A program made the translations under genes and the position numbers. From Rhizobium sp. ASV8 (GTDB taxonomy: Bacteria > Pseudomonadota > Alphaproteobacteria > Rhizobiales > Rhizobiaceae), in the NCBI RefSeq assembly GCF_016429255.1, contig NZ_JAELUG010000010.1, positions 1 to 64,000 of the forward strand: a stretch of DNA of 64,000 bases, given 5' to 3'. Shown here piece after piece: positions 191 through 18,428 of the stretch. The number at the start of each line of letters is the position of its first letter. Position 1 is the first letter of the stretch. Below the pieces are notes generated by a model. It worked only from the letters and a program-made list of their open reading frames with translations. It made no database searches and was not told where the DNA came from.

Positions 191-619
191 CTAGCCGACC
201 TTGAAGGCTCGCCCGGCATCGAGCAGGTCGACAGTGCCAAGCCCGGTCTCGCGCAGCACGAAGATGCGTTCGCCATTGACGACGCCGAGCGCGTAGCCGA
301 AGGGACCCTCATGCGGGATGGCGGCGATATCGCCGATGCCGGCCGCACTCGGATGGATCTCGGGCAGCATGCTGGCGACGAGATCGGCAAGATTGTCGAA
401 GCCCGCTGCCTTCATCGTTTTCAAGGCACCCGCTGCGGTCGAGTATTCGCCACGAAACTGCGCGGCGCAATCGACGCCGGTGATCGCCAGCACCAGATTG
501 CCGGCAAGCCCCGGTCCGCAATCATGGCTACCCCAGGCAAAGGGCGTGCGCTTCAACCGATCGATCTCGGCGACGAAGCAAGCGCGCCAGTTCTTGACCC
601 TGATGAGATCGCTGTTCAT
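191..619 (-). CDS. DUF6950-type phage tail protein, probable cell-wall peptidase position
   Basis: The product is 142 residues. It has a conserved FAWGSHDCG segment about residue 30, in which Cys could be a nucleophile, and a later PHEGPFGYALG segment that could supply the His. This layout resembles NlpC/P60 and DUF6950 proteins, which sit between the DUF2163-like hub and the tail-tip protein in alphaproteobacterial phages and gene transfer agents. I chose the ATG at 619 because it overlaps the upstream stop as ATGA and follows a GGGGG-rich ribosome site. A longer in-frame start at 643 would overlap the upstream gene. Peptidase activity during DNA injection is inferred, not shown. Confidence 0.65.
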   Translation of the reverse strand: MNSDLIRVKNWRACFVAEIDRLKRTPFAWGSHDCGPGLAGNLVLAITGVDCAAQFRGEYSTAAGALKTMKAAGFDNLADLVASMLPEIHPSAAGIGDIAAIPHEGPFGYALGVVNGERIFVLRETGLGTVDLLDAGRAFKVG

Positions 620-1236
620 TTCTGCCCCCAGGGGATCTGCCAATTGGCGACGGTGCTGGAATAGAGGCCGAATTCATCGCCGCTGCGGCGCTTCTGGCCT
701 TCGTAGGAAGATTTGGCCGGGTTGGTGCGCTCCAGCATGGCGATGGCGGCGGAGATGGCGGATATTTCGATATCCCCATCCTGCCCCACGGCCGGCGTCT
801 TCACCGGCGCGCCATCGGCAACGCCGAGAAAGGCGATTTCCGGGGCCGCACTCGGCTGCCGGGTGCCGGTATCGAACGTCATGTCGTGGATTTCGATCGG
901 CGCCAGCCGCAGATCGTAGCCGCGCACAAGCTGCTGCGCGACGGGCGCGATCTGGCCGATGGTGATGGTCACGGTCTGGATCGTCAGATCGGCCGTGCGC
1001 GGTATCGGGCTCACCTTCAGATTGAGGCCGCCATAATAGGTGCGCGCCTCGGCCAAACCGGTGACGCCTGAGATGACGGTGATATTGATGTCGTCATCGC
1101 CGGTCCAGAAGCCGATCGAGGCGGGAGCGCCGCTGGCGATATCCTTGCCGGTGATCCAGACGAAACGACGGGGCACAAGCCCCTTGTCGCACGCGCCGGT
1201 CAGCGCCGCGAAGAAGGCAGAGGTGATGTTTTTCAT
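616..1236 (-). CDS. Phage tail (DUF2163-like hub) protein
   Basis: The product is 206 residues and starts MKNITSAFFAALTGACD. The C-terminus has the pattern RRSGDEFGLYSSTVANWQIP, which is common in tail proteins lying two genes after the tape measure. The position (tape measure, tail protein, this gene, peptidase-like gene) matches the order seen in lambdoid and gene-transfer-agent tails, where DUF2163-type proteins form the baseplate hub. It is shorter than the roughly 290 residues of the gene-transfer-agent hub, so homology is tentative. It is translationally coupled to the next gene through ATGA. Confidence 0.65.
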   Translation of the reverse strand: MKNITSAFFAALTGACDKGLVPRRFVWITGKDIASGAPASIGFWTGDDDINITVISGVTGLAEARTYYGGLNLKVSPIPRTADLTIQTVTITIGQIAPVAQQLVRGYDLRLAPIEIHDMTFDTGTRQPSAAPEIAFLGVADGAPVKTPAVGQDGDIEISAISAAIAMLERTNPAKSSYEGQKRRSGDEFGLYSSTVANWQIPWGQK

Positions 1237-1239
1237 CGT

Positions 1240-1887
1240 CTATTTCTTCTGGATGATCTTGAAGGTGGCGCCCGAGGTGATCGGGCCGCTCGCGGTGCCG
1301 GGATTGTGGCTGCCCGGCATGACCAGGCATTTGCAGGCCGGGAGCAGAAGCGTCACGCCGAGACCGGCCGCAAAGCCCGCCGGCAGATGCGGGAAGACGC
1401 CGAAGACGGGCGTCACCCCCTGCCCGTCGGCACCAACCGTTTCCGAGACTTCGAGAAAGGCGGAGCGTGCGCCGCCATAGCCGACCTGCATCTTGTCGCC
1501 GACCGTCAACCGATAGCCGGCCGGCAGGCCCTTGAGACTGAGCGAGGCATTGTCGGCCCCGAGCGCTGCGACACTGACCGCAGCGCTCCCGAGCTTCGTC
1601 CCATCGGGGTCGGCCTGCGGATATTTCGACAGCGGATCATAAAGAAAAAGCGCCTCCTGGGCGCCGTGTAGCTTGCGGATGCGGGCGGCGATCTGTTTCG
1701 CCTCCGCATTGTACATGTCGGAGAGCGTCACCGTGCCGGTCCAGAGCGGCGGCGCCAGCTCCGCCTGCCAGACCCGGCCATCGCCGGAGCCGGAAAGCTC
1801 GTCGTTACGCTGAATGTCCCAGACGATGCTGGAGATCTTCAGAAGATCGGCAAAGGCCGGCAAGCTGTAGGGATAGGAAACGGCCAT
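1240..1887 (-). CDS. Phage distal tail protein
   Basis: The product is 215 residues, beginning MAVSYPYSLPAFADLLKISS. It is rich in beta-type segments and short Gly/Ala turns, as expected for a distal-tail structural protein. Its start overlaps the tape-measure stop as TGATG and follows a GGAGG ribosome site, so the two are coupled. The place directly after the tape measure is where distal tail or DUF2460-like proteins occur. I do not see a diagnostic motif, so the specific family is uncertain. Confidence 0.6.
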   Translation of the reverse strand: MAVSYPYSLPAFADLLKISSIVWDIQRNDELSGSGDGRVWQAELAPPLWTGTVTLSDMYNAEAKQIAARIRKLHGAQEALFLYDPLSKYPQADPDGTKLGSAAVSVAALGADNASLSLKGLPAGYRLTVGDKMQVGYGGARSAFLEVSETVGADGQGVTPVFGVFPHLPAGFAAGLGVTLLLPACKCLVMPGSHNPGTASGPITSGATFKIIQKK

Positions 1888-4541
1888 CAGCGCCTCCGGG
1901 GATTGCGGTTGATCTGCGCGACGCGATCGGGAAGCTGCTGATTGAAATCATTCAGCCCCTGCCGCGTCGAACTCTGCGCTTCCGATTGCGCGACATTCTT
2001 CACATAGGCCTTGAGATTGCCGTCCTCATCGACGGAAACGCCGACCGTGACATGCACGCCGGAAGCGGAGCCGATGCCATCGTTCTGGTTGTCGGCCCGG
2101 AGGCGACGGACGGGAACGGCAGCATCCGGCTGCGCCGGCACCAATTGCGGCCCGACCTCGCCGACCACCCCCCCATCGGCATAGCCGCGCCGCCCAAGCC
2201 GCATTGCCTCGACGACGCCGACGCCGCCTGCCCGGGCGATATCCTTCTGGCTCCAGACGACCTCGCCGGCATGAACGATGCCGACTGGCTCATAGACGCC
2301 GCCATAGCCGGTGTAGCCACCGTTTGCAAATCCGCTGGGGCGTGGCATCGGGATCGGAATGTTTGAGCCGGTTGGCAAGGTTACCTCGCTCCCTCCTCCG
2401 AACCCCAACAAATTGAGAAGGCCACCGAAGAAACCGCCACCTCCGCCACTGCCAGCAGCACTGTTGACCTGGAACAGACTGTTGAGCACATCGTTCAGCA
2501 ACCTGTCGGAGATCTTTTTGAGTACGGTGACCGCAGCGTTCCCCATGGACTTCCAAAAACCCTCACCGCTGCGCAAGCCGTTGACCAGCGTCGTGGTGAA
2601 ATCGCCGGCAAGCTCGCGGGCATATTTCAGCTGTTCGTTATAGCGAATGATATTGGCCGAGGCCGAATTCATGTCGACCGGCAGGCCATATTGCTTCTGT
2701 GTCGAAGCAACCGTCTGATCGATGGTCGAGCGGCCCATCTGTTCCTGCTGGAGCTGGATATCGCCCGCGAGCTTGGCATTAGCGGTTGCAGTCGCCAAAG
2801 CATTGTACTGTGCAATTTTGTTCTTGATATCTTGTATTTGGCCGGGCGCTGCAGCATGAGACTTGTCTTCTGTCGCGCGCAAAAGCTCCAAATTCATTTT
2901 CAAGGTTTCGACGGCAATGCTGTTAAGCCCGATAGTTTGTGCTTCCGTGTTCATTTGTTCGATACGCGACTCGACAGATTTTTGCAGAGTATCGTATGCG
3001 CTCGTAGCCTCCTGGGCCGGGCGAACCATGTCACGGTTGGAGCCGCGCGCTGATCCTCCGTCGGTAGTTGTTGACGGCTGAAATGCCTTTTTTTGTGCGT
3101 TCAGACGTTCGCGTATATCGCTGTATTTGAGAGGAGTACCAACATCTGGACCAAATCGATCATCGAAGTTTTTTACGCGCCTAACCGTTTCCTCTTGGGA
3201 GTATCGGCTGAAATGAGGCGTCGTACGCACCGCGTTGTCTAAACCTTGAACATTCTTCATTGCTTGTAGGGCGATCAAACCAAATTGCCGAATTTCCTCC
3301 AAAGCCTGAGAGAGATCAGGATGAGCGTTACTAAGTTCGCGGATTTTCTGATTCAGTTCTTCTGCACTGCTTTGATTTGCTTGCAAATTTCGAAAAAGAT
3401 CCTCAAGCACCCGTTGAGGTTCCTGCAGTTTACTTGCACCAAAGGGATTTATTCTATTAACCTTATCCTGCATCTCGGCAAATGCCTGTGCAACAGGGTC
3501 GATCTTATCACGCAAGACCGATAGTTTACTTTGAGCCGCAACTGCGCTGCTCGAGTATTCTCGCAGCTTTCCCGCAACTTCCTCTGTTATTTTACCGGAA
3601 TTCTGAAGCTCAATTATCTCATTCTGAAATTCTATCGCCTTTATCTTCCCAGATTCAATCGATTTATTGAATCTGTCGATGGCTTCTATCGCCGGATCAA
3701 AAGTAGTTGGCGGTATATATACTATCTGATCGGCGTAAGGCGCTTGCTGCCCAAGCATATCCGCAAGAATTGAACGAGACGCCTTTTCACCCTCGGCTTT
3801 GAGCGTCTTCTGGGCGTTTTTGTAATCGTCTTTCAGATTGGCGCTTGTAATAGCTGGGCCTAGCTTTAAAGCCTCTTCTTTTTGCTCGTTCATTTTCTGA
3901 TAAGTCGGCCCGAGCTCTGCTATATGCTCTGCATGTTGCTTCAGTATCTCGTCAACGCTCTTAACGTCTCGGCCAGCATTTAAAAAATACTGAACTACGG
4001 CAGCTCCTGCGAAGGTGAGCGCCTGCGTTACTAAACCTATGGGATTAAGCATGGTTAGAAATGCACTGCCTAAACCCTTCACAAGCCCAGTAAGTCCCCC
4101 CGCTCCACTGAGCATTTCACCCAATTTTCCGCCTTGTTGAAGGGCAATCATAAATGGGGAGTCGCCACTTGCCATTCGGGTACCCATTTCAATGAGGACA
4201 TCCTTCAGGTCTTTCGCCTTTATGCTCAGCGCCTCGATTGAATTCTGGTTGCCCTGGCTTTCTGCAATCATGCTGGTGAGTGAACCCGCAACCCTGTCAA
4301 CGGCTCCCGCTGTAGAAGAATAGCTATTCTTCCATTCTATCATGCCAGCCGTCGCTTTGCCGATCGCTCCTGTGTTTGAGGCCGCTTTGACGCCTAGCGT
4401 GCTAATCGCGCGAGCCGCCGCCCCTACTTCCATCTCAACGTTGCCTGCCGCAACAGCAACACGATTTATCCCTGCAGCAGCCTGATCGACACCAACGATC
4501 GTGAACTTCACACCCAAAGTTGCAATATCTGTCACTGGCAT
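1887..4541 (-). CDS. Phage tail tape measure protein
   Basis: The product is 884 residues, the longest in the tail operon. Its residues 1-150 resemble the prophage tail length tape-measure domain (TMP_2), including a DSPFMIALQQGGKLGEMLS segment near 128-146. A hydrophobic stretch follows at about 155-190. The middle is helical and rich in Gln, Glu and Lys, and a Gly-rich hydrophobic patch lies near 695-720. The protein would set tail length and pass through the membrane during DNA entry. By eye the part encoded at about 2800-4540 is clearly AT-richer than the 3' third, suggesting a mosaic gene whose N-terminal portion was exchanged together with the adjoining AT-rich cargo. Confidence 0.9.
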   Translation of the reverse strand: MPVTDIATLGVKFTIVGVDQAAAGINRVAVAAGNVEMEVGAAARAISTLGVKAASNTGAIGKATAGMIEWKNSYSSTAGAVDRVAGSLTSMIAESQGNQNSIEALSIKAKDLKDVLIEMGTRMASGDSPFMIALQQGGKLGEMLSGAGGLTGLVKGLGSAFLTMLNPIGLVTQALTFAGAAVVQYFLNAGRDVKSVDEILKQHAEHIAELGPTYQKMNEQKEEALKLGPAITSANLKDDYKNAQKTLKAEGEKASRSILADMLGQQAPYADQIVYIPPTTFDPAIEAIDRFNKSIESGKIKAIEFQNEIIELQNSGKITEEVAGKLREYSSSAVAAQSKLSVLRDKIDPVAQAFAEMQDKVNRINPFGASKLQEPQRVLEDLFRNLQANQSSAEELNQKIRELSNAHPDLSQALEEIRQFGLIALQAMKNVQGLDNAVRTTPHFSRYSQEETVRRVKNFDDRFGPDVGTPLKYSDIRERLNAQKKAFQPSTTTDGGSARGSNRDMVRPAQEATSAYDTLQKSVESRIEQMNTEAQTIGLNSIAVETLKMNLELLRATEDKSHAAAPGQIQDIKNKIAQYNALATATANAKLAGDIQLQQEQMGRSTIDQTVASTQKQYGLPVDMNSASANIIRYNEQLKYARELAGDFTTTLVNGLRSGEGFWKSMGNAAVTVLKKISDRLLNDVLNSLFQVNSAAGSGGGGGFFGGLLNLLGFGGGSEVTLPTGSNIPIPMPRPSGFANGGYTGYGGVYEPVGIVHAGEVVWSQKDIARAGGVGVVEAMRLGRRGYADGGVVGEVGPQLVPAQPDAAVPVRRLRADNQNDGIGSASGVHVTVGVSVDEDGNLKAYVKNVAQSEAQSSTRQGLNDFNQQLPDRVAQINRNPRRR

Positions 4542-4580
4542 ACCTTTTCAAAACATGCGAAATACAACCCTGCGCTTTGA

Positions 4581-5036
4581 ATGGGGGATTTCGTGATTAG
4601 ATTGTGGAGATTGGTGAGCGTAGCTTTTTTGCTGCCAGCCATTGGCGGCTGTAGCTCTTCTGAATCGAAATTGGTGACCGTGTGCGAAGAAGTTTTGAAA
4701 TTGAGACTTTTAGCACCGGGAGGATACAAGCGGGTCGAAATTGAAGAATCCAAAGAGCCTCTCGGCCGCGACGACTACAAACGTTATTTGGCCGGGGACG
4801 AATATGGGCCGCTCATCCAGGGAGCCAGGATGAAGGATTTTGACCAAGGCCGGGTAAAACCTCTGATGTTTGAGGTTCTTATAACTTACGATGCTCCTAA
4901 CGCTTATGGCACACCAATTCGCGGCACCTCCAGATGTCAGTATCCAACTGACAATGAAGACACCTCCAAAGCGGATCGTCTCTACGTAATGGTTGACGGC
5001 AAAACGAACGCTGAGTGGTTAGTGACGCAGCGTTAA
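4581..5036 (+). CDS. Putative prophage-encoded lipoprotein (moron)
   Basis: The product is 151 residues with a lipoprotein signal peptide: a basic start (MGDFVIRLWR), a hydrophobic core, and a lipobox LPAIGGC that puts the lipidated Cys at residue 24. The mature part is hydrophilic and unrecognised, with a few Tyr-rich segments and a second Cys pair. It lies 39 bp from the tape-measure start but runs in the opposite direction, inside the tail operon, and is AT-rich like the next two cargo genes. Such lysogenic-conversion genes often encode envelope proteins that exclude other phages, but that role is a guess from position. Confidence 0.7.
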   Translation: MGDFVIRLWRLVSVAFLLPAIGGCSSSESKLVTVCEEVLKLRLLAPGGYKRVEIEESKEPLGRDDYKRYLAGDEYGPLIQGARMKDFDQGRVKPLMFEVLITYDAPNAYGTPIRGTSRCQYPTDNEDTSKADRLYVMVDGKTNAEWLVTQR

Positions 5037-5053
5037 CAGGCACGGTAGTGACA

Positions 5054-5320
5054 ATGAAGCCTCAACTACTTCTGACTGCATTCTTCGCATGTACAATCAT
5101 CACCCAAGCCTTAGCTGACGACGAGCACAAGCGTCTTCAGCTGACCGGTAAAGTCATTGATGGTGTGAACGTGAGTTTCATGATTGCTTATCAATGCCGC
5201 GATGCGCTTGGCCCAACATACTACAATGCAATTCGGACGTATGCCGAGAAGGTGTTTCAGCAAATCGGCTTGTCACCGGAAATGGCGGCACAACGAGTTA
5301 ACAGACTTGAATTACGGTGA
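5054..5320 (+). pseudogene. Secreted moron protein truncated by a RAYT element
   Basis: The ATG at 5054 opens an 88-residue frame with a signal peptide (MKPQLLLTAFFACTIITQAL, then ADD). The mature part aligns with the intact 131-residue protein at 6129..6524: MIAYQCRDALGPTYYNAIR against LIAYTCRDALGVAYYNAVR. The alignment stops at NRLE against DTLE, and the last codons (TTA CGG TGA) belong to the left inverted repeat of the transposase element. About 45 residues of the C-terminus, including a conserved second Cys, are missing and no remnant follows the element. It could still make a short secreted product, but I regard it as broken. Confidence 0.75.
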
Positions 5321-5329
5321 CAGTGCACT
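5311..5329 (+). repeat. RAYT left inverted repeat
   Basis: attacggtgacagtgcact is a perfect 19-bp inverted match to 6038-6056. It contains the TGA that terminates the upstream truncated gene. Confidence 0.9.
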
Positions 5330-5361
5330 CAATAGACTTTCAAATCTAACCAACACATCCA

Positions 5362-6039
5362 ATGGCCCGTCTCGCTCGTATCGTCGTCCCTGATATTCCA
5401 CATCATGTTACACAACGCGGCAACGGGCGGGCGCAAACCTTCTTTTGCGATGATGACTATGCGCTCTATCGCGATCTCCTGGCCCATCATTGTCGTGCCG
5501 CCGGTGTAGAAGTCTGGGGCTGGGTGTTGATGCCCAATCATGTTCACCTCATCCTTGTTCCAGCGGATGCTGACGGTATTCGCCGCGCACTATCTCGCAT
5601 TCATCGCACCTATGCCGGCCATATCCATGCAAGGCTGCGCCGGACCGGCCATTTCTGGCAGGGTCGCTTCGGTTGTGTCGCCATGGATGAAGAGCATCTG
5701 GCGGCGGCGCTCCGCTACGTCGCCCTCAATCCGGTGCGCGCCCGCCTTGTCGAGCGGGTCGCCGATTGGCGATGGTCGAGTGTCGCGGCCCAACTTGGAC
5801 TGATTGAGGATGACGGCGTCACGACCACAACACCGGTTCGCGCTCGCTTTCCCGATTTCGCCGCCCTCCTCACTGCCGGAGAAGAAGAGATGGCGTTTAC
5901 CGCGCTTCGCCGAGCCGAAAGCATCGGCCGCCCCATCGGCAATACCAACTTTCTCGACCGGCTCGAAGACGTCACCGACGCCGCGATCAAGCCGGCTCGC
6001 CGCGGCCGCAAAGCCAAGGTCGTCGTTGAAGGAAATTAG
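5362..6039 (+). CDS. REP-associated tyrosine transposase (Y1_Tnp family)
   Basis: The product is 225 residues. The N-terminus has HHVTQRGNGRAQTFF, then the metal-binding HVH motif within MPNHVHLILVP at residues 58-67, and the helix RYVALNPVRARLV with the probable catalytic Tyr at 119. This is the IS200-like TnpA fold used by RAYT proteins, which nick and rejoin single-stranded REP DNA. The basic C-terminus (PARRGRKAKVVVEGN) is also typical. The gene is GC-rich, unlike the AT-rich genes on both sides, which marks it as a later insertion. All motifs appear intact, so it may be active. Confidence 0.9.
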   Translation: MARLARIVVPDIPHHVTQRGNGRAQTFFCDDDYALYRDLLAHHCRAAGVEVWGWVLMPNHVHLILVPADADGIRRALSRIHRTYAGHIHARLRRTGHFWQGRFGCVAMDEEHLAAALRYVALNPVRARLVERVADWRWSSVAAQLGLIEDDGVTTTTPVRARFPDFAALLTAGEEEMAFTALRRAESIGRPIGNTNFLDRLEDVTDAAIKPARRGRKAKVVVEGN

Positions 6040-6056
6040 TGCACTGTCACCGTAAT
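6038..6056 (-). repeat. RAYT right inverted repeat
   Basis: agtgcactgtcaccgtaat is the exact reverse complement of 5311-5329. It includes the transposase stop codon region. Confidence 0.9.
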
Positions 6057-6128
6057 CCCTCAATCCTAAGCTTTCCTTTTTGGTGAATCTCGCCCTATTA
6101 TTAGAGAGGGACAATCAGAGGTATATAA

Positions 6129-6524
6129 ATGAAGACGTCGCGAACTATATTGGCGATTTTTACTTTGGCATTTACCACGGAGACATCGGTCGCTGCAGAT
6201 CAAAAGTGGATTCAGTTGCTGCAAGATGTTAGCGACAGAGCTTCAACGGCGTTCTTGATTGCATATACGTGCCGTGATGCTCTTGGAGTGGCCTACTATA
6301 ATGCAGTTCGAGCATATGGAGAGCAGGCGTTGCGGCAAAGTGGCGCTTCACCAGAAGCAATTAAGAATAAATTCGACACCCTTGAAAGCAATTTTAAGTT
6401 TGACGAAAACCTGTTGCACGAAGGAGACGCAATAAAGTGCGTATGGATGACAACCGAGGCTAACAGAGTTTTTCACGCATCGGTGACCGCCTTTGCCGAT
6501 TATAATCTCTCTACAAAACCGTGA
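6129..6524 (+). CDS. Small secreted moron protein, intact paralog
   Basis: The product is 131 residues with a signal peptide (MKTSRTILAIFTLAFTTETSVAA) and a mature domain of about 108 residues containing two Cys: one in YTCRDALGVAYYN and one in DAIKCVWMTTEAN. They could form one disulfide in the periplasm. It is clearly paralogous to the truncated protein encoded at 5054..5320. AT-rich composition and orientation match the lipoprotein gene at 4581, so the three formed one cargo cassette before the transposase arrived. The family is unknown to me. A periplasmic immunity or superinfection-exclusion role is possible but unsupported by motif. Confidence 0.7.
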   Translation: MKTSRTILAIFTLAFTTETSVAADQKWIQLLQDVSDRASTAFLIAYTCRDALGVAYYNAVRAYGEQALRQSGASPEAIKNKFDTLESNFKFDENLLHEGDAIKCVWMTTEANRVFHASVTAFADYNLSTKP

Positions 6525-6692: not shown

Positions 6693-7058
6693 CTACCCCG
6701 CCTCTCGCGCCCTGATCGCCTCTGTCTCCTCCTCCACCGCCTGGCAATAGCGCCCGTCCATCGCCTTCAGCACGGCGATGTCCTCACGGCGCAGGAGATT
6801 GCCGGTCAGTTGCAGCCAGGCCAGTATTTCCTGGTGGGAGAGCGGCGCCGGGCCGGAAAAGCCGGGAGCCTGCGCCGAGCGCAGGTCCCAGAACCAGTCC
6901 CAGAGCGCATGGCCGGCCTCCGGCACCTCGGCCTCCGGGCTTAAAAGCTCGAAGGCCTCGTTGCGTTCGCGTCGGGTCTCGCCGTTTGTATCGCGCACGC
7001 AATCATAGCGCGCAACGATCCCTACGGCTTCTGAAAGCCCTTCGGCAAGCTCTTCATA
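6693..7058 (-). CDS. Tail assembly chaperone, -1 frame extension (gpT-like)
   Basis: This open frame has no convincing start of its own. It encodes about 121 residues (YEELAEGLSEAVGIVARYDC and onward, with WDWFWDLRSAQAPGF later) and overlaps the end of the preceding chaperone gene in the -1 frame. At the overlap the zero frame reads GCA AAT TTT ATG, containing the slippery heptamer A AAT TTT. A -1 slip there continues directly into this frame, giving a fusion of about 243 residues. That is the G/GT arrangement known from lambda-type tails, in which the T part binds the tail tube protein. The 5' limit given is the slip point. Confidence 0.75.
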   Translation of the reverse strand, partial: YEELAEGLSEAVGIVARYDCVRDTNGETRRERNEAFELLSPEAEVPEAGHALWDWFWDLRSAQAPGFSGPAPLSHQEILAWLQLTGNLLRREDIAVLKAMDGRYCQAVEEETEAIRAREAG

Positions 7059-7423
7059 AAATTTGCGCGGTCCTCCGAGGCGCCGGCCACCTGATCGTAG
7101 ATCCAGCCGGCGTCCTCGACGACTTCGCGGGCCTTCTCGAAGGAGAGCACCGGCTGCTCGCCCTTCCACTGCTGCTCGCCCCAGTTCCAGGAAGCGATGG
7201 CGGCGGCCGCTTTGTCGAGATATTCGGCCTCGACCTTACTGGTGGTCAGCTTCTTCTTGCGGCTGGCGAGAAAGCGGTCGCTATGCTGGCGAACGATCTT
7301 CTTCACCTCGTTGCTCTCGGCCGAGCGGATCATGAAGGAGATGCCGAGCGGCTCCTCGGTGGCCGGATGCAGGAGCTGCAGCTCGAAGAGATCTTCGGAA
7401 TTGACGAGACTGGAGATATCCAA
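7022..7423 (-). CDS. Tail assembly chaperone (gpG-like)
   Basis: The product is 133 residues starting MDISSLVNSEDLFELQLLHP, with a charged middle and SWNWGEQQWKGEQPVLSFEK near residue 85-105. It lies between the tail tube gene and the tape measure, the standard position of the tail assembly chaperone. The zero-frame stop is TAG at 7022-7024. Most ribosomes would stop there and a minority would shift into the -1 frame at 7058-7064. The chaperones coat the tape measure and recruit tube subunits, and they are absent from the finished particle. Confidence 0.75.
   Translation of the reverse strand: MDISSLVNSEDLFELQLLHPATEEPLGISFMIRSAESNEVKKIVRQHSDRFLASRKKKLTTSKVEAEYLDKAAAAIASWNWGEQQWKGEQPVLSFEKAREVVEDAGWIYDQVAGASEDRANFMKSLPKGFQKP
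7058..7064 (-). other. Probable programmed -1 frameshift site (A AAT TTT)
   Basis: On the minus strand the heptamer AAATTTT fits X XXY YYZ in the reading frame of the upstream chaperone (codons AAT and TTT). It sits 12 codons before that gene's stop and within the overlap with the -1 frame. In this GC-rich gene an A/T heptamer in exactly this phase is unlikely by chance. Downstream sequence is GC-containing and could form structure, which I did not compute. Confidence 0.75.
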
Positions 7424-7506: not shown

Positions 7507-7992
7507 TTACGGCGTGGTGACGGGATCGACGCGGATCGGCAGCTGGTTGAGGCCGACCTTGAACTTCTCCAGATCGAAATCGTCGGAGCCGCCGCCGGGA
7601 TAAAGCGGGCCGGAAACGACGCCGCGCGAGTAGAACACCGTGTTGGTCTTGCCCTGCGGCGCGTCGTTGCGCTCGACCTTGATCGCCATATTGTTGACGT
7701 TGAGGGGGTTGCCGAAGGTGCGCAGGATCTCCTGGCCGGGATCGTCGGCGATGGAGGCGACCTCGAGTTCCGGATCGCCGGCGTTGGAAACGCCCTTCTG
7801 CTTCTGCTGCACCGGCTCATCCAGCGTATTGTAGTTGTTGATGGTGGATTCCGAGCCGAAATCGCCGACCTTGCCGACCTTCCCCACCTGCACCCAGGTC
7901 AGCGCGGCATAGGCGCTGGCCGTCAGGTCGGTATTCTGGGGCGTCTCGCATACGTAGACTTTCGAGCCCTTCTTCGTACTTTTATTCGCCAT
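7507..7992 (-). CDS. Phage major tail tube protein
   Basis: The product is 161 residues, beginning MANKSTKKGSKVYVCETPQN. It has the size and beta-rich, Gly/Val-rich character of a siphophage tail tube subunit. It lies after the tail terminator and before the tail chaperones, the canonical tube position. A GGAGA ribosome site precedes the ATG at 7992. The tube polymerises around the tape measure. I base the call on order and size more than on a sequence signature. Confidence 0.7.
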   Translation of the reverse strand: MANKSTKKGSKVYVCETPQNTDLTASAYAALTWVQVGKVGKVGDFGSESTINNYNTLDEPVQQKQKGVSNAGDPELEVASIADDPGQEILRTFGNPLNVNNMAIKVERNDAPQGKTNTVFYSRGVVSGPLYPGGGSDDFDLEKFKVGLNQLPIRVDPVTTP

Positions 7993-7995
7993 GGA

Positions 7996-8427
7996 TCATG
8001 TCTCCGGTTCAAAGGCGGTGTAGGGAATGGTGACCGGTATCTGCACCCGGTCATCCTCTTGGATCGGGCCTGCGGCCCACGGCTCGCCGCTGATCGTGAT
8101 CTTCACGCCAGAGGCGAACAGCGTCTTGTTGTTGAAATGGTCGATGACCTGGCCGGCGGCATCGAGTGGCTTGATCAGCCCGCCGCCGGCCTTCCAATAG
8201 ACGGAAACCTGCAGAAGCCCGAGCTTCTGCTGCGGATCGTCGCCAAGCGTCACCTGCCGGGGACGGTTGGGCAGGTAGCTGACGGCCAGATAGTTATCCG
8301 GCTTAGCTTGCCCCGCCGGCGGAAAGACAATGCCCGGCTGCGCCACCGGCAATGGCGGCTGAAATTGGAGTGCTGCCAGATGATCCAGCAGTGCCGCCAG
8401 AATAAGAGCGTCCGTCGCCGTCGCCAT
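7996..8427 (-). CDS. Phage tail terminator (DUF4128-like)
   Basis: The product is 143 residues, beginning MATATDALILAALLDHLAAL, with an amphipathic helix followed by YLAVSYLPNRPRQVTLGDD and a beta-rich second half. This matches the tail-terminator fold described for phages (DUF4128/gpU-like). It would cap the tail and join it to the head. It sits between the gp10-like connector and the tail tube gene with only 3 bp to the latter. Confidence 0.65.
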   Translation of the reverse strand: MATATDALILAALLDHLAALQFQPPLPVAQPGIVFPPAGQAKPDNYLAVSYLPNRPRQVTLGDDPQQKLGLLQVSVYWKAGGGLIKPLDAAGQVIDHFNNKTLFASGVKITISGEPWAAGPIQEDDRVQIPVTIPYTAFEPET

Positions 8428-8463
8428 GCGTCACCTTGTCTATGATGTTGAAATTTCTAAGGG

Positions 8464-8856
8464 TTAGTCCGCCGTTTCGCGCGCGGTACTTGCGACGATG
8501 TCAGGCCATGCCTGTGCCGCGAGCCGCACCATGCCCTGCCCCGCCTGGCCATCATTGCCATATTCGACGGTGGCGGCATGAGGGGCAGTGAAACCCATAT
8601 GTATCAGACCGCCCAGCGACACGCCGAGGCCGGCCAGATCGACCTGACGGCCCTCACCCTCGCCCTCAGCATCCTCGCGTTGCAAAGGCAAAGCCGAAAC
8701 CTGAAAGGAATTGACAAGCTCGCCCGTGGCGGCAGGCGTCGCCTCGACGATCGCCTCGGCCAGCCGCTGCGTGGAGAGGTTCACCACCTCTTCCATGCGC
8801 TTCTTGGTCCGTTCGGCCCAGGCCGCGATATCGGCGGAGAAATTGGAGGAAGCCAT
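8464..8856 (-). CDS. HK97 gp10-like head-tail connector or neck protein
   Basis: The product is 130 residues, beginning MASSNFSADIAAWAERTKKR. It has the helix-rich N-terminus and the TPAATGELVNSFQVSA segment typical of HK97 gp10-like or minor tail proteins, followed by HAATVEYGNDGQAGQGMVRL near residue 93-112. It lies just before the tail terminator. The exact role in the neck is inferred from order. Confidence 0.65.
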   Translation of the reverse strand: MASSNFSADIAAWAERTKKRMEEVVNLSTQRLAEAIVEATPAATGELVNSFQVSALPLQREDAEGEGEGRQVDLAGLGVSLGGLIHMGFTAPHAATVEYGNDGQAGQGMVRLAAQAWPDIVASTARETAD

Positions 8857-8877
8857 ATCGATTGCCCCTTGATAAGA

Positions 8878-9105
8878 TCAGGCGTCATCGGCGGCGTCGC
8901 CCGGTGAAGAGCCAAGCCGCTCGAAATTCAAAAGTGTGAGATGGCCGTAACGGGCACGAACCGCAGGTCTGGCCGTTGGGGGTTCGGCCCCGACCCCGCC
9001 ACTCCTCTCAATTCCCGGCAATGGCGAGACACGGTTGAGCAGCAGGATGACGCGCGCCAGCAGCCAGAGCGTGAGGATCGTCTTGAAACGCACAAGCGCC
9101 GTCAT
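8878..9105 (-). CDS. Small phage protein with a hydrophobic N-terminus
   Basis: The ATG at 9105 overlaps the stop of the preceding head gene as ATGA, giving 75 residues. The N-terminus (FKTILTLWLLARVILLLNRV) is one possible membrane helix. The remainder is polar with PPTARPAVRARYGHLTLLN. A longer frame with an upstream start exists but would overlap the head gene, so I prefer the coupled start. No function is apparent. Its tight spacing in the operon supports it being a real gene. Confidence 0.55.
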   Translation of the reverse strand: MTALVRFKTILTLWLLARVILLLNRVSPLPGIERSGGVGAEPPTARPAVRARYGHLTLLNFERLGSSPGDAADDA

Positions 9106-9458
9106 CGCCGCACCTGCAGCTGCCAGAACACGACCGTCCCACCCGGCGACAGCGGCTGGAGATCGACAATCGAATGCTCGATATCGCCAATCAGCACCTT
9201 GTCGGCCAATGTCGGCGTGATCGACAGTCCCTTGGTCGACAGATAGACCACGCGATCCCCACGCTGCACCAGCGTGTCGGCAACATGCATCTGGCTCTGA
9301 TCGAGATCGACGAACGAACACGCAAAATCCTCGCTCGTCTGTACCGGATCGTAATCGGGGCCGGAATTGACGATGCGTCGCAGACTTCCCCGCTGGCCGA
9401 ACTTCGCGATCAACCGCTCCGCAGTCGCCCGCGCCTTGCCGTAATCGAAAGCGTCCAT
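9102..9458 (-). CDS. Phage head closure or stopper-like protein
   Basis: The product is about 118 residues with the sequence MDAFDYGKARATAERLIAKF at its start, then a beta-rich domain ending GGTVVFWQLQVRR. The length, order and start helix fit the head-closure proteins that bind the connector below the portal. The ATG at 9458 overlaps the upstream stop as TGATG. A GTG one codon earlier is an alternative. Family assignment is from context. Confidence 0.6.
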   Translation of the reverse strand: MDAFDYGKARATAERLIAKFGQRGSLRRIVNSGPDYDPVQTSEDFACSFVDLDQSQMHVADTLVQRGDRVVYLSTKGLSITPTLADKVLIGDIEHSIVDLQPLSPGGTVVFWQLQVRR

Positions 9459-9955
9459 CACACCACCAGAATGCCCGGCAGCACCGGACGCAGGAGGGGA
9501 TAAAGCAAGCCGTCGAGCATCGTCAGCACCGGCTTGGCGGAAGCGATCATCTCGTCGCTCGTGGCGGCGACGGCATATTCCGTCTCCAGCGGCCCCACCT
9601 TCTCGCGCTTGACGGTGCGGGCCGCGACAATGACCGGTGTCAGGCCGCCGGGCTCCGAAAGCTCAAGCGCCGCCGCCTCATAGGCGGCATGTGTTACAGC
9701 CAAGGGCGTCACGTCGCCGGCAACAATCTCGCCGTTGACCGTTACCGCTCCGACGCGCGGCCATGACAGCGCCTGATCATAACCACCGGCACGCTGTCCG
9801 CTAAATCTGGGCTCATAGAGACTGTCGATCGCCTGCGACCCGCGCACCAGCGCCGCCAGGCGATCGCCATCGCTTGCCGCGGCCCAGGCAACATTGCCAC
9901 GGTCGACAAAATAGGCATCGGCGGCAGCAAGCGTGCCGTAAAAGGATGCGGACAT
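9458..9955 (-). CDS. DnaT-like head-tail adaptor protein
   Basis: The product is 165 residues from the ATG at 9955, which has a GGAG ribosome site. An upstream ATG at 9976 lacks one. The sequence MSASFYGTLAAADAYFVDRG followed by helical segments (RLAALVRGSQAIDSLYEPRF) is characteristic of phage proteins annotated as putative DnaT-like, which act as head-tail adaptors. It directly follows the major capsid gene, which agrees with that role. The DnaT name is historical and I see no reason to infer DNA replication. Confidence 0.7.
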   Translation of the reverse strand: MSASFYGTLAAADAYFVDRGNVAWAAASDGDRLAALVRGSQAIDSLYEPRFSGQRAGGYDQALSWPRVGAVTVNGEIVAGDVTPLAVTHAAYEAAALELSEPGGLTPVIVAARTVKREKVGPLETEYAVAATSDEMIASAKPVLTMLDGLLYPLLRPVLPGILVV

Positions 9956-10027
9956 GAAAGCTCCGATGTCGATCATTGGGAAGAGGAGAACCCTCTCCCC
10001 GCCGCAGCGGAGAGGGGGAGATCAGGC

Positions 10028-10999
10028 TCAGGACGCGACGGCGATCTTGTCGCCATAGGCCATGGCCGCCGGCAGACGAACTTCGGTACCGCCGGTGCGG
10101 GCGATGATGCCGGTCTCGAAACTCATGATCGACTTTTGGCGCGGCTGCAGCACGCGGCGCGGCATCGGCAGATGGAAGCGCAGTACTTCCGGATCACGGC
10201 GATAGACCACCATGCGGCCACCGCCATCCTGCGACGCCGTCGCAAGCTCGCGCAGCGGCTGGATATCGAGCGGCTGGCCCGTTTCGGCCGTGTAGACGTT
10301 GCCGCGCCGCAAGAAGTCCAGCACGGTGATGTAGCCATCGCCGTCGGCGAGCCGTTTAGTGGCAATCAGGCGAAAGGCCTCGGGCGGCAGGCGGAGACTG
10401 TCGATCCACTCGACTTCGCCGGTCCGCTTGCGCACGCCGCCGATAAGATCGTTGACATCGCGCAACATCTGGTCGGCCGTCTTGGCGGACCAGAGAGTCG
10501 AGCCGCCCGTACCATCGGCAGCGACATCGACGCGCGACACCTTCGGATCGTTGACGAAACCGGTCCAGCCCTTTTCCGTCGAGCCGGTCATGGCGACGGA
10601 ATTGAGCAGGCGTTCGATCTTATCGGCGGCGAAAATGGCGTTGGAGGCGTTGAGATCGAGATTGTAGAGCGCCGCCTGGTTGACCTCCTCGAGGTTCCAC
10701 TCCCAACCGGAGCCGATCATCGCGAAGTCATGGCTGGCGCTGTCGCGGGTCGACTGGTTGAACGGCATGTCCGTACCAGCGGCCGAGAGGAACTTCGCCT
10801 CGCCGGCGCTGTCGACCGTGAAGAACGTCGTGCCGGAGGCCCATTCATTGCCTTCGGTGACAACCGGAACATGAAGGCCATAATTGAAGGTCGGATAACG
10901 GCGCTGGTAGATGCGGGTTTCGATGTTGCGCCCTTGCGCAATGACGAAGGAATAGGCGGCCTGGGCATCGGTGAACTGCTGTCGAACGAATTGGTTCAT
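10028..10999 (-). CDS. Phage major capsid protein (DUF2184 family)
   Basis: The product is 323 residues, starting MNQFVRQQFTDAQAAYSFVI. The sequence has the DUF2184 pattern: an N-terminal Y/R-rich arm (RIYQRRYPTFNYG), a middle with DKIERLLNSVAMTGSTEKGW, and a C-terminal PMPRRVLQPRQKSIMSFETG. DUF2184 proteins are HK97-fold capsid subunits. It lies next to the cement and protease-scaffold genes. A GGAG ribosome site precedes the ATG. This would be the most abundant virion protein. Confidence 0.85.
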   Translation of the reverse strand: MNQFVRQQFTDAQAAYSFVIAQGRNIETRIYQRRYPTFNYGLHVPVVTEGNEWASGTTFFTVDSAGEAKFLSAAGTDMPFNQSTRDSASHDFAMIGSGWEWNLEEVNQAALYNLDLNASNAIFAADKIERLLNSVAMTGSTEKGWTGFVNDPKVSRVDVAADGTGGSTLWSAKTADQMLRDVNDLIGGVRKRTGEVEWIDSLRLPPEAFRLIATKRLADGDGYITVLDFLRRGNVYTAETGQPLDIQPLRELATASQDGGGRMVVYRRDPEVLRFHLPMPRRVLQPRQKSIMSFETGIIARTGGTEVRLPAAMAYGDKIAVAS

Positions 11000-11002
11000 G
11001 GA

Positions 11003-11473
11003 TTAGGCGCTCCTGTGCTTGAGCGAGATTTCGACGATGTCGCCGTTGCTGCCGCTCGTATCGAAGAAACAATCGGGAATGGGGCCAACGATGCCGGTGC
11101 CGGCTGCATTGACGTAAGCGTCAGTCGTCGGGTTGTAGTAGACGGTGTCGCCATCCGAGACGACGCCGCCGGCCCGCACATACATCTGACCAGAGGTCAG
11201 GAACGCGCCTGTGACGAACTGGGCATAGCCACCGGCCGGCGCTACATCGGGCAACACGTTCGGTGTGAGTACGGCAATGCCGATAAATTTGCCGCCAGCG
11301 GCAAAGGGCGCCACGCCATGATCGGCGAGACCGCGCTGCACCGGCTGCCCGAACTTGATGCCGGCGGCGGCTTCAACCGTGCGGCTGATCTTGTTGGCCT
11401 TTTCCTCAGAAGCGATCTGCCCGTGCAGGCCCTTCCGAGGAGCGTTTCCATAGGTGGTCTGATAAGTCGCCAT
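11003..11473 (-). CDS. Capsid cement or decoration protein (Gp24/DUF2190-like)
   Basis: The product is 156 residues, starting MATYQTTYGNAPRKGLHGQI. The motif GLHGQIA at the start and the beta-rich core with AQFVTGAFLTSGQMYVRAG resemble structural cement proteins found beside DUF2184 capsids. The gene is 3 bp from the capsid gene and has an AGGAGA ribosome site. It probably stabilises the capsid lattice. Confidence 0.7.
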   Translation of the reverse strand: MATYQTTYGNAPRKGLHGQIASEEKANKISRTVEAAAGIKFGQPVQRGLADHGVAPFAAGGKFIGIAVLTPNVLPDVAPAGGYAQFVTGAFLTSGQMYVRAGGVVSDGDTVYYNPTTDAYVNAAGTGIVGPIPDCFFDTSGSNGDIVEISLKHRSA

Positions 11474-11500
11474 TGAAGCGTCTCCTTTTCGTTGACCTGG

Positions 11501-12616
11501 TTAAGTGGGATTGGCGGCCAGATGCGCGCTCTCAAGATCGCGCACCATGGCGGCGTAAGCGGTAAAGGCCAGGGATGTGGATGGCTGCGCCGAGGTGATG
11601 CCGTCTTTGACGGCATCGGCGAAAAGATCCGGCTTCTTGTTCAAGCCTTCGGTCAGCATGTCGAAACGCGCGTCGACATATGCATCCGATCGACCTTGTA
11701 CCGCACCCTCGCCTGCCTTGGCGATCACCACGGCCTTGCGGATCGCAGCATCAGAAAGACCGGATGTCTGGACATTCGCGGCAATCGCCTTGGCAAGAAC
11801 GATCAGGTCGGCGCGTGCCTCAGCACGGCGTTCGATCTCCGCCTCATCGAGAAGCGTCGCCTTCAGTGTGTCCAGTTCCGCATCCCGGATTGCAATAGCC
11901 TTCTGATGGCTGATCTCGGTATCGGCAAGGCGTTGGCGCAATGCCGCAATGATCTCTGCAGCCTGATTGGAGACCTCAATCTCAATGCCGTCGATCATGA
12001 TCGTCTTCGTGGGCATCATTCCTTCCTTGCTGTGGTGATGATCGGAAAGGGGGCGTGGGGCTGCGAGAGGAGAGCAGCCCCACGGTGCAGCCACATCGCC
12101 GATGCGGACTTTCGAGCCCGCACGGCCACGGCGCACAATGGCGATATGATTGATGCGAATGTTACGCTGAACAGCGTCGTAGGCTTCGCCTGAAGGCGTG
12201 ACGCCAGCGGTGAAATCGACATCGCAGACATAGCCGGCGGACAGCTCCTGCTTGCCACTTTCGATGTCCTGGATGGCGTCCTCATCGCTGACCATCAGCG
12301 GCACGCGGAGGAAGATGCCTTCACCGATGATCTCGTCCCCGGTCTGACCGACGGCGTATTTCTTCCAGTTTTCCGAGGTGACCATTTCCGGCGGATGCTC
12401 ATTTGTCACCGGACGGTGAGCGGCACTCTTGAGCGTGTCTTCGGAAAAGACTTCGCCCCCAGGCCGATAGATGCGCACGGAGGACATTTCGGGTTTACCG
12501 ATCTCAGCGCCACTATAATTTTGAACGCCGGTACGAGCGATCCGGGCGTCGGCGACAAGATAGCCGTCTCCGGTCCGCCGCGTGCCCGCGACGGTGACAA
12601 TGTCTGTGAAATTCAT
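11501..12616 (-). CDS. Prohead protease fused to scaffold protein (DUF2213)
   Basis: The product is 371 residues. Residues 1-175 are a DUF2213-type prohead protease, with VTNEHPP (His74) and ELSAGY (Ser126) as likely catalytic positions. Residues 201-371 are a charged helical segment rich in Ala, Glu and Arg, as in scaffolds. Between them is a low-complexity linker (APRPLSDHHHSKEG). Met200 and Met201 are preceded in the mRNA by AAGGAAGGA, so the scaffold part could also be made separately from an internal start, as in lambda C/Nu3. The protease would cut the scaffold after prohead assembly. Confidence 0.8.
   Translation of the reverse strand: MNFTDIVTVAGTRRTGDGYLVADARIARTGVQNYSGAEIGKPEMSSVRIYRPGGEVFSEDTLKSAAHRPVTNEHPPEMVTSENWKKYAVGQTGDEIIGEGIFLRVPLMVSDEDAIQDIESGKQELSAGYVCDVDFTAGVTPSGEAYDAVQRNIRINHIAIVRRGRAGSKVRIGDVAAPWGCSPLAAPRPLSDHHHSKEGMMPTKTIMIDGIEIEVSNQAAEIIAALRQRLADTEISHQKAIAIRDAELDTLKATLLDEAEIERRAEARADLIVLAKAIAANVQTSGLSDAAIRKAVVIAKAGEGAVQGRSDAYVDARFDMLTEGLNKKPDLFADAVKDGITSAQPSTSLAFTAYAAMVRDLESAHLAANPT
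12016..12031 (-). promoter_or_regulatory. Internal ribosome binding site and start for the scaffold domain
   Basis: On the minus strand GCAAGGAAGGAATGATG gives a strong Shine-Dalgarno core (AAGGA) about 7 nt before the second ATG. The codons encode Ser-Lys-Glu-Gly-Met-Met at the protease/scaffold boundary. Internal initiation here would yield a 171-residue scaffold protein in frame with the long product. This is inferred from sequence and from known phages that use nested scaffold genes. Confidence 0.55.
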
Positions 12617-12721
12617 GTTGAGATTTCTCCTGGCCGAAGCCGATCAGGGTCGGATAAAAGGCCGCTACCACGGTGAAACGGGTCTATTGGCGGCTAAGGG
12701 GCAGCCGATCGTTGGGTTACT

Positions 12722-14056
12722 TCAGAGCCCCGTTTCGGATTGCTCGACATCCCTATTCGGCTGATCTGTCGTCTTCGCCGCTACCTCCAATCCCGGCAGC
12801 GATCCATCCTCCACAAAAGCATTCAACAGCGCTTCGGAGAGCGCTAAGCGGGGAATGATCTCTTCTCCTGAAGCCGAGCCGAATAGAGACCGGGCCGCTT
12901 CTGCCTTTGTCTTGAAAATATCGGCCCGCTCCTTCTCGCTCATCTGTTCCAGCGGAGCCCAGGTCGCATAGATCGCGGGATCGCGAGCGCCAGTGGCGGA
13001 GCGGATGACGCATTCGTCGAGCCGAGACATGGCCGGCGTGTAGTCGAGCTCTTGAATGGCCTGTATCCGATCGTGATAGTTTTTCATGTCGGCCGTGCCT
13101 GTGGCGTTCATCCCGGCGGGAGACTGCCCCAGCAATCGGGTGACGGGAATATCGGCTGCGCCGGCGACGATCTGCAGGAACGCCATCAGAATATCCGTAA
13201 GGCCGGAGAGCGGCGCACTCTTGCTCTCGTATTCCTCCTCGGAGTCGAGGATCAGCGTGCCGTTGACGCCTTTAATGGCATTGGCAAGCGTGTAGCGACG
13301 CAGTACGGCGTCCTCATAGGCCTGATTGCCGATATTGGCTGAAAACTGCGGTACTTTGATAATATCGATCTTTGCTTCAAAGACGAGGCTGGCAATGTTT
13401 GCGGCCGTACTGTCCGCGTTTTTGATCGCATCGAGCGTCGCGGTAAGCACGCTCTCGCCCCAGGCGTGATTGTCCATTCCGCCAAATCCCTGATCAGGTG
13501 TCATGGCGCCCTTGAAGACCACCAATCTCGATGGGTGGATGACAACCTGCGTTCCGTTGGCACCTGTCAGCGTATAGAATTTCGGTTTCCCGTGCCATTC
13601 CGAGGCCGGATCACCATCCATGTCGCCGGCCGCGAGCTGGCAGCGTGTCAGCACCGTCAAATGCTTGAGGCCGCCCTTTTCAATTGCTTCCAGATCGAGC
13701 GGTAGCGCAGGATCGGCATCGTCGACGCCGATGAACAGAGCAGCACCTCCAAAGAGACGCGCTTTGGTAGAGGCTTCAAGCACCTTGCCACGCAGATTGA
13801 GCCTGCGCTCCTCGGCTTCGATCGATCCGATCTGATCGCCCGCGGCCTGCCAGTTTCGCCATTTTCTGCAGCTGTCCAGCGCAGGAATATCGACGATCTT
13901 GCGCGGCAGCCAGGAGCCGCGATAGGCTGCGATAATCTGCTCGTCCGTCAGGATCGGTTGCGTATAAAAAACCGAGGTCGCCTTGTCGCGCTCGGTGCCC
14001 ATGCGGGACGCGAGGCTCACCAGTCCGTCGCGAACCATCGAGAATATCTGCCCCAT
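12722..14056 (-). CDS. Phage portal protein (DUF1073)
   Basis: The product is 444 residues from the ATG at 14056, which has an AAAGGA ribosome site. A longer frame starts at 14098. DUF1073 features include the N-terminal AAYRGSWLPRKIVDIPALDS, GWSVFKG-like SRLVVFKGAMTPDQGFG and the C-terminal IPVTRLLGQSPAGMNATGTA. The dodecameric portal is the DNA entry pore of the capsid. It lies between the large terminase and the protease gene as expected. Databases sometimes label this family anti-CBASS Acb1-like. Length and context here argue for the structural portal. Confidence 0.85.
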   Translation of the reverse strand: MGQIFSMVRDGLVSLASRMGTERDKATSVFYTQPILTDEQIIAAYRGSWLPRKIVDIPALDSCRKWRNWQAAGDQIGSIEAEERRLNLRGKVLEASTKARLFGGAALFIGVDDADPALPLDLEAIEKGGLKHLTVLTRCQLAAGDMDGDPASEWHGKPKFYTLTGANGTQVVIHPSRLVVFKGAMTPDQGFGGMDNHAWGESVLTATLDAIKNADSTAANIASLVFEAKIDIIKVPQFSANIGNQAYEDAVLRRYTLANAIKGVNGTLILDSEEEYESKSAPLSGLTDILMAFLQIVAGAADIPVTRLLGQSPAGMNATGTADMKNYHDRIQAIQELDYTPAMSRLDECVIRSATGARDPAIYATWAPLEQMSEKERADIFKTKAEAARSLFGSASGEEIIPRLALSEALLNAFVEDGSLPGLEVAAKTTDQPNRDVEQSETGL

Positions 14057-14104
14057 GGATTGTCCTTTGATATCGATGTGATGAAAGGTCCGCTTCAAGC
14101 GAGC

Positions 14105-15646: not shown

Positions 15647-15899
15647 CCGTGGCGTTGGTTAAGTCGATGGTGAGGCCCCGACCCGCTTTGGCTCCAGCTA
15701 CCGCACCGGTACGCTCGCTTGGCTTCTGATGAACGTAGGAGGCTGCGATCTTCGCCATTTCGTCGCGCCGTTTTTGATCCGCCTCGTCGTCACGCATCAC
15801 CTTCAGCATGTAATCGAGCGGCGTATATGCCGCAGAAACTGACTTGCGCCGCCGCGCACGCGGCTTGCGCGGCACGACTGGCTTGTCGGCATTGGACAT
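15546..15899 (-). CDS. Probable phage terminase small subunit
   Basis: The product is 117 residues from the ATG at 15899 (a longer frame starts at 16007). It starts MSNADKPVVPRKPRARRRKS, a basic N-terminus suited to DNA binding, then has TPLDYMLKVMRDDEADQKRR, a motif seen in small terminase-like proteins next to TerL, and an acidic Gly-rich tail. It would recognise the packaging site. The call rests on position immediately upstream of terL and this motif. Confidence 0.65.
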   Translation of the reverse strand: MSNADKPVVPRKPRARRRKSVSAAYTPLDYMLKVMRDDEADQKRRDEMAKIAASYVHQKPSERTGAVAGAKAGRGLTIDLTNATDEQLAILETLFAPLAGSGEDDGGDPRGEGETGG

Positions 15900-16185
15900 G
15901 CTTGAAATTTCCGATGAACCTTGAAAGAAAAAGCGGTTTAAGACATCGCTTGCGGTCAACAGTGCGTCGCTGCAACTGTTCTCATCATGCCAAAATGAAT
16001 ACCCCAATTCGGCAGGTTTGGCGACACCCCTGATGAACGATAGCTCTGCAACGAATGAAGATCTTGGCGAGGCAAGCGATTAATCCTCTGAAATAATTAG
16101 GAAATGCTGCAATCTGGCGTCCGACAAATTAAGCAGGCTTGTCGTCGGATCCCTCAAGCTGCCCAGACCACAGCGTAAGGATAAG

Positions 16186-18140: not shown

Positions 18141-18428
18141 TCACGCCACGTTCCCTGAGGCTGCAGCAGCAGAGCTGGTCGATCTTGGCTTGAAAAAAGC
18201 TTCTGCTTTGGAGAGCGCCTCGACTTTCGCACCGTCGCGCAGCATCGGCGTATTCAGATAGGCGACCATCGCTTCCCCTGCGGCCGCCTTTGCAGCATCC
18301 TGCGTCGCAAAGACGATCGGCTCGCCTCGCCGATCTCTGAGAATCTCGTTCGTCGCCCGGTGGACCTTGCGAATCCAGCCGAGATAGCCGTCGGCAACGG
18401 CATCGGTTCCAATTTGAAATTCATTCAT
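18141..18428 (-). CDS. Small uncharacterised phage protein
   Basis: The ATG at 18428 follows a strong GGAGGAG ribosome site and opens 95 residues, beginning MNEFQIGTDAVADGYLGWIR. It contains EILRDRRGEPIVFATQDAAK, a substrate-like pattern, and ends in a low-complexity Ser/Ala tail. The frame continues upstream to 18611 but that would overlap the membrane-protein gene without a ribosome site. No function recognised. Confidence 0.5.
   Translation of the reverse strand: MNEFQIGTDAVADGYLGWIRKVHRATNEILRDRRGEPIVFATQDAAKAAAGEAMVAYLNTPMLRDGAKVEALSKAEAFFKPRSTSSAAAASGNVA

Follow-up and report, generated by a model that had tools for sequence, protein, structure and literature searches.

A cassette of envelope-protein genes at positions 4581 to 6524 of a 64,000-nucleotide stretch of Rhizobium sp. 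ASV8 DNA (contig NZ_JAELUG010000010.1, positions 1 to 64,000, forward strand; hereafter the window) is one allele of a hypervariable block made up of a phage tape measure protein (TMP) gene and adjoining envelope genes. The block is probably a tape-measure and exclusion locus within a fixed, prophage-derived particle cluster, in which the envelope proteins would block particles carrying the matching TMP. The plus-strand envelope genes oppose the late operon and are sited between the genes for TMP and the tail assembly chaperones (TAC), as follows:

1887..4541, minus strand: tape measure protein, 884 amino acids (Pfam TMP_2, PHROG tape measures)
4542..4580, no strand: divergent intergenic region between the TMP and lipoprotein genes, 39 nucleotides (from the sequence)
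4581..5036, plus strand: family A lipoprotein, 151 amino acids, lipobox IGGC with Cys24, predicted helix and four-stranded sheet
5054..5320, plus strand: family B signal-peptide protein, cut at codon 88 by a transposon
5311..6056, plus strand: RAYT-like element, 746 bp, with perfect 19-bp terminal inverted repeats at 5311-5329 and 6038-6056
5362..6039, plus strand: Y1 tyrosine transposase, 225 amino acids (Pfam Y1_Tnp)
6129..6524, plus strand: family B signal-peptide protein, 131 amino acids, intact, helical
6693..7169, minus strand: tail assembly chaperone, second frame, conserved right border of the block (Pfam Phage_TAC_18)
7022..7423, minus strand: tail assembly chaperone, first frame (TAC1; PHROG phrog_313)

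The preliminary description of the cassette had named an AT-rich moron of a lipoprotein and two paralogous signal-peptide genes, lying on the plus strand between the chaperones and TMP. Coordinates and the Pfam and PHROG matches agree with this layout, the lipobox and its cysteine bear out the lipoprotein, and the two family B genes (5054-5320 and 6129-6524) share 39% identity over 86 amino acids. The G+C content of the cassette genes was 0.46-0.49 versus 0.61 for the head genes and 0.63 for the TAC and tube genes, as the AT-richness claimed would have it; the AT-rich block extends past the cassette, because TMP residues 1-560 share the low G+C (0.487, against 0.602 for the rest of TMP). The count of three envelope genes stood, but the RAYT-like transposase among them had been overlooked and the middle gene is truncated.

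Relatives of the locus were retrieved via the chaperones, and therefore cassette content did not bias their choice. Across 20 relatives, the late genes other than TMP had median identities of 81-98% versus 43% for TMP, and the chaperone at 6693-7169 was 89-100% identical in all 20. TMP identity reached at least 85% in only three. The hypervariable block includes TMP residues 1-560, which were replaced in 17/20 relatives, with identity over residues 1-80 at 35% or less in 17/20; the C-terminal part (approximately residues 801-884) is conserved, residues 801-880 being retained at 81-96%. Among 53 sequences, 13 had no TMP within reach and 15 repeated the gap of another, leaving 25 distinct TMP-to-chaperone gaps, and after exclusion of G330, whose TMP is broken, 24 arrays were analyzed. 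Their plus strands carry 43 genes of family A, 23 of family B and 9 of the RAYT type, plus two unclassified open reading frames (ORFs), one of which sits in the RAYT remains of L115. The TMP reading frame was intact in 23 of the 24 arrays; the TMP of L038 is split.

The number of envelope genes per array ranged from one to four in the 24 arrays, and the largest array, G436 (L281:8857-16390, approximately 7.5 kb), contained six envelope ORFs and a fragment, together with RAYT remains and other transposase genes or insertion sequence (IS) copies. A single fixed moron is ruled out by these one to four genes at 24 loci and at least six in G436. The moron reading of the preliminary description thus survives in part: the genes are of prophage type, with homologs beside CI/S24 repressors and TMP, but they form a hypervariable allele. 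In-place gene duplication as the main source of the arrays is disfavored, because the arrays mix two families and their genes match the first genes of other TMP types.

TMP residues 1-400 fall into 11 types across the 24 loci. The TMP-proximal envelope gene tracks these residues (Mantel r=0.72, p=0.0003, 3000 permutations), and the TAC-proximal (distal) gene shows no tracking (r=0.06, p=0.18). The chief exception, G313, carries a 187-bp remnant, 97% identical to the window-type TMP, just before a window-type lipoprotein gene. Remnants of TMP 5' ends were found inside the arrays at 13/24 loci, weak ones counted, all in the TMP orientation and none on the opposite strand. Among strong remnants (at least 60 bp, E<1e-15), 5/7 precede a gene of the same type. 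In the non-matching cases, the L106 gene is chimeric, its first 50 residues being 80-90% like the expected type and the remainder 89% like another type, and the L026 gene has no close relative. Two further pairs of a remnant and a same-type gene are present in G436. The remnants, together with the retention of older envelope genes under purifying selection (ratio of nonsynonymous to synonymous substitution, omega, 0.12-0.35; 8 groups, n=2-8), point to more than linkage. The remnants follow the pattern of sequential displacement known from the immunity arrays of type VI secretion systems (T6SS; PMC5361080).

The envelope genes of the window could not be assigned to a named family, as had been stated before. 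No family in Pfam, NCBIfam or PADLOC covers them, the one Pfam match at E<=1 being a sub-threshold transporter match of the middle gene, and PHROG gave families of unknown function only, phrog_20018 for the lipoprotein (E=4.8e-6) and phrog_27949 for the family B paralogs (E=0.032 and 0.004). A lipobox with Cys at 17-26 was present in 25 of the 43 family A proteins, and the remaining ones are anchored at the N-terminus or carry just a signal peptide. Residues C35, E36, Y49, R51, G90 and P94 (window protein numbering) are invariant in family A and C119 nearly so. The predicted models are alpha/beta, with a helix and a sheet, for family A (pLDDT 83) and helical for family B (pLDDT 86.5). Neither model had a Foldseek match in the PDB at E<=0.001; the viral library gave one match at 6.9e-4 and, at 1.8e-3, a lipoprotein of a Gordonia phage, with TM-scores of 0.35-0.47, none of them a confident match. 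With VIA, in which family A alone was examined, the top Z of 6.8 belonged to an Affimer and was within the chance range, and a profile search of PDB sequences gave two matches, at chance level.

Recurrence at the same locus was evident, with arrays at 24 loci and family A in 23/23 genomes of the genus that carry the element, versus 1/125 of the other genus genomes, so that homologs among core chromosomal enzymes, the outcome named earlier as fatal to the exclusion idea, are not supported for this family. The family B query found no relative in the viral contigs or the phage collection. Outside the element, family B had five weak matches (E 1e-10 to 1e-12), and the contexts inspected by eye had no phage gene within 3 kb. 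In a set of relatives (L025:11927-12730, minus strand, and others), a 268-amino-acid protein combines an N-terminal anchor, an extra cysteine-rich part and a family A domain; by eye, its anchor resembles the lone TMP-adjacent gene of Rhizobium phage RHph_TM3_3_3.

The transposon within the cassette encodes a protein that scored 36.3 bits against Pfam Y1_Tnp, above the cut-off of 23, and 75 bits against NCBIfam NF047646 (REP_Tyr_transpos, RAYT), below the cut-off of 80. Its 19-mer inverted repeat occurs in this genome at those two sites only. The insertion left the middle gene with 88 codons versus 131 in the intact relative on the L012/L020 contig, which is 92% identical over 86 amino acids. 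Close relatives of the transposase were found in 9/148 genus genomes, one copy each, seven of them inside the cassette by coordinates and two on short contigs with family A and B genes. The element was met only in or alongside these arrays, and some copies are truncated.

The surroundings of the block look like a prophage-derived element fixed at one chromosomal site in a group of Rhizobium species. It carries endolysin, head, tail, portal and terminase genes, and no integrase or replication genes were found among the main ORFs scanned, small ORFs being scanned in part. The further features are:

191..1887, minus strand: distal tail genes (PHROG distal tail protein, tail protein, phrog_2134), conserved left border of the block
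7507..16007, minus strand: tail tube, terminator and connector genes, major capsid, head protease, portal, TerL and TerS-like gene, the remaining late cluster within the window
19087..19875, plus strand: helix-turn-helix (HTH)/S24 (CI-type) repressor adjoining the element

Sixteen genomes were retrieved around the capsid gene, 13 of them clade genomes with capsid identity of at least 93%. The right flank (methyltransferase and S24 gene) is common to 13/13 and the left flank (isomerase) to 12/13, the contig of the remaining one ending; the three genomes with capsid identity of 79% or less have different flanks. With the same site in 13/13 clade genomes, the element is not an ordinary recent prophage. 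TAC1 was detected at 92% identity or more in 23/148 genus genomes. The S24 gene (at least 85%) occurs without TAC1 in 16 further genomes, 11 of which keep TerL at the site and 5 of which have neither, which suggests an old insertion and repeated loss. In the 11 deletion derivatives (e.g., L203 and L205), TerL at 88-91% identity lies beside the flanking isomerase and the tail genes are gone. Counting those with tail genes and those without, 39 genomes of the clade retain the S24 repressor, and its tie to the element is uncertain given the 16 genomes that have it and lack the tail genes. The ORF 17028-18035 was dropped as a flank marker; in-frame stops interrupt it in nearly all the other genomes, and the methyltransferase, isomerase and S24 genes were therefore used. 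In the right flank, the genes at 17668-18084 and 18141-18611 gave matches to PHROG families without an assigned function, and that stretch may thus itself be old prophage DNA.

Synonymous divergence (dS) was compared in 14 genomes. Median dS was 0.97-1.00 for TerL, portal and the S24 gene, 0.20 for the tube and lowest, at 0.11, for TAC1; on the TMP C-terminal side it was 0.27-0.37, with 0.27 for the TMP C-terminus itself. The correlation of dS with that of the S24 gene fell from 0.5-0.6 to approximately 0 at the block. This indicates that the block is exchanged horizontally, through the conserved sequences that border it, while the cluster as a whole is inherited vertically. The late genes are under purifying selection, with omega of 0.04-0.25 in the same genomes.

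Family A genes elsewhere occupy comparable places. Two homologs, L006 and L007, lie directly downstream of HTH/S24 repressors, gene 2 of phage RcWaterboi is a family A gene downstream of the annotated immunity repressor, and in another genus (L005) a homolog is divergent from a TMP_2 gene at a distance of 33 nucleotides. The position beside CI/S24 repressors or divergent from TMP fits expression in the lysogen and exclusion. In a second, more distant phage group (42 loci, chaperone identity 54-69%), a gene whose product has a hydrophobic N-terminus is divergent from TMP at 38/42 loci and starts 10-61 nucleotides from it. The families of these genes vary, seven matching family B, and gene similarity correlates with that of the TMP N-terminus (r=0.57). 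In Rhizobium phage RHph_TM3_3_3, a 94-amino-acid gene with an N-terminal anchor is divergent from TMP at 59 nucleotides.

In the mechanism proposed, family A proteins, as lipoproteins or anchored periplasmic proteins, and family B proteins, as secreted helical proteins, would reside in the envelope of the carrier and be made in uninduced cells. There they would block particles with the matching TMP, most likely through binding to TMP on its entry into the periplasm or inner membrane. Each incoming TMP 5' part would bring its own envelope gene and displace the old 5' part while the older envelope gene stays, and arrays would in this way grow outward from TMP. Blocking of the matching TMP is the simplest account of the data. 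The exclusion proteins Ltp and gp15 and the defense protein SNIPE all act via TMP (PMC10883804, PMC13190303).

Known systems were compared on the basis of excerpts of PMC10811719, PMC10883804, PMC5361080, PMC13190303 and PMC3952083. Ltp, also a small lipoprotein, is encoded by the temperate Streptococcus phage TP-J34; it targets the TMP of the incoming phage, and changes in TMP overcome it (PMC10883804, PMC3952083). The ltp gene lies beside the repressor, as do the homologs in RcWaterboi, L006 and L007, whereas the window gene is beside TMP; the genes described here are mostly beside TMP, several per locus and Gram-negative. Ltp has been described with repeat domains, in contrast to the predicted alpha/beta fold of family A, and no sequence link was found. 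HK97 gp15 is likewise a prophage-encoded membrane protein; it blocks injection, and escape occurred in hybrids with the tail tube and TMP genes of another phage (PMC10883804). Unlike the arrays, gp15 is a single gene. It also lies beside tail genes, and to our knowledge neither an array nor displaced TMP fragments accompany it. SNIPE is a membrane defense acting at the siphovirus TMP during injection. Susceptibility to it depends on the TMP type; changes at residues 100-150 gave escape, and a region at 300-400 differs (PMC13190303). SNIPE is a membrane nuclease, whereas families A and B have no nuclease match.

In the T6SS of Vibrio cholerae and in contact-dependent inhibition (CDI)/Rhs systems, orphan immunity genes are retained with remnants of displaced effectors and exchanged horizontally (PMC5361080). 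The likeness lies in a conserved machine with a variable part and an adjacent gene, here in the sense of co-variation and not of function, and in older genes accompanied by remnants. What varies here is a phage tape measure at its 5' end and not a 3' toxin domain, and the adjacent genes encode envelope proteins instead of cytoplasmic or periplasmic toxin inhibitors. Domesticated particles of the PBSX or gene transfer agent (GTA) kind and rhizoviticin share with the element vertically kept particle genes, a lysis gene and, as far as the main ORFs scanned here show, the lack of a recognized integrase. Rhizoviticin is a tailocin, whereas the element has head genes, and the rhizoviticin paper has no mention of "tape measure" or "immunity". 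In the open-licence PMC literature, searched at the level of abstracts, no account of this locus was found and no paper joining an immunity gene, a tape measure and a tailocin.

Several results weigh against blocking of the matching TMP. The nearest gene could track TMP through linkage alone, and when all remnants with a downstream gene are counted (three rows at a locus's own TMP start were left out), just 8/16 precede the same type. Family A went undetected at all 42 loci of the second phage group, where the gene is correlated with the TMP C-terminus as well (r=0.36) and a similar gene was present in just 85/257 pairs with similar TMP N-termini. The site proposed for Ltp is the C-terminal end region of a TMP, whereas the N-terminal part varies here (PMC3952083). 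Only 5/24 TMPs have strong hydrophobic segments, no solved structure connects either protein family with a known exclusion protein, and the L004 family A gene is located on 3.4 kb without a recognized phage neighbor. The scan for sigma-70-like promoters in 4542-4580 gave no plus-strand site and two minus-strand sites versus 2.2 expected by chance, and the promoter and terminator scans as a whole were at chance level.

Ordinary superinfection-exclusion morons directed at free phages of the same lineage, with the carrier's own particle dead or never released and hence irrelevant, are an unlikely explanation, though a serious one: free temperate phages show the arrangement, beside the repressor in RcWaterboi and divergent from TMP in RHph_TM3_3_3, and keeping the older genes would remain worthwhile against phages. 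In a search of 50,697 phage records, however, the capsid protein of the element had its best match at 55% identity (462 records) and none at 60% or more, so that no close free phage is known. The low omega of the late genes would be unexpected for a dead particle, and family A was found in 0/16 genomes lacking tail genes, though there the array may have left with the deletion. The opponent may be free phage or the carriers' own domesticated particle, and fixation and purifying selection favor a role for the particle. Tentatively, a headed particle domesticated for use between Rhizobium strains may be envisaged, in which the N-terminal part of TMP would set which cells can be breached and the stacked envelope immunity genes, one per TMP type that the lineage has had, would be a heritable record of past types, as a tape-measure counterpart of the CDI/Rhs/T6SS orphan immunity arrays; this further proposal is less likely than not.

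An improbable alternative is that the envelope genes are linked hitchhikers with an unrelated envelope function, e.g., lysozyme inhibition or envelope stress, which move with TMP in recombination tracts. The decay of the TMP correlation with distance is what linkage alone would give, and the pairing in the second phage group is weaker; yet just two families occur in the 24 arrays, always on the plus strand, unrelated exported proteins occupy the same divergent place in other phages, and TMP-type remnants adjoin orphan genes. That the island is a decaying prophage, with arrays kept by chance as junk and broken by transposons, is very improbable. The RAYT insertion in the middle gene, the 16 clade genomes without tail genes (11 keeping TerL), the broken TMP of G330, the split TMP of L038 and the IS copies in G436 are signs of decay, against which stand the low omega of structural and envelope genes, the intact TMP frames in 23/24 arrays and the dS valley centered on the block.

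If the envelope proteins do block particles with the matching TMP, the tape measure would be a polymorphic compatibility determinant besides a ruler and an injection conduit, and the presence of a hypervariable tail gene in an otherwise conserved cluster would be explained. The locus would pair TMP with a readable stack of candidate resistance genes and offer a handle on the open question of how envelope exclusion proteins recognize tape measures, with the 11 TMP types in 24 loci as natural matched and mismatched pairs. Particle-based competition with immunity stacking may then operate in symbiotic Rhizobium. Elsewhere among the tail genes, the large tail-tip protein (L160:13144-18594 and relatives) was also highly variable, with best-segment identities of 37-79% to G361 in 12 others, perhaps as receptor-binding variation.

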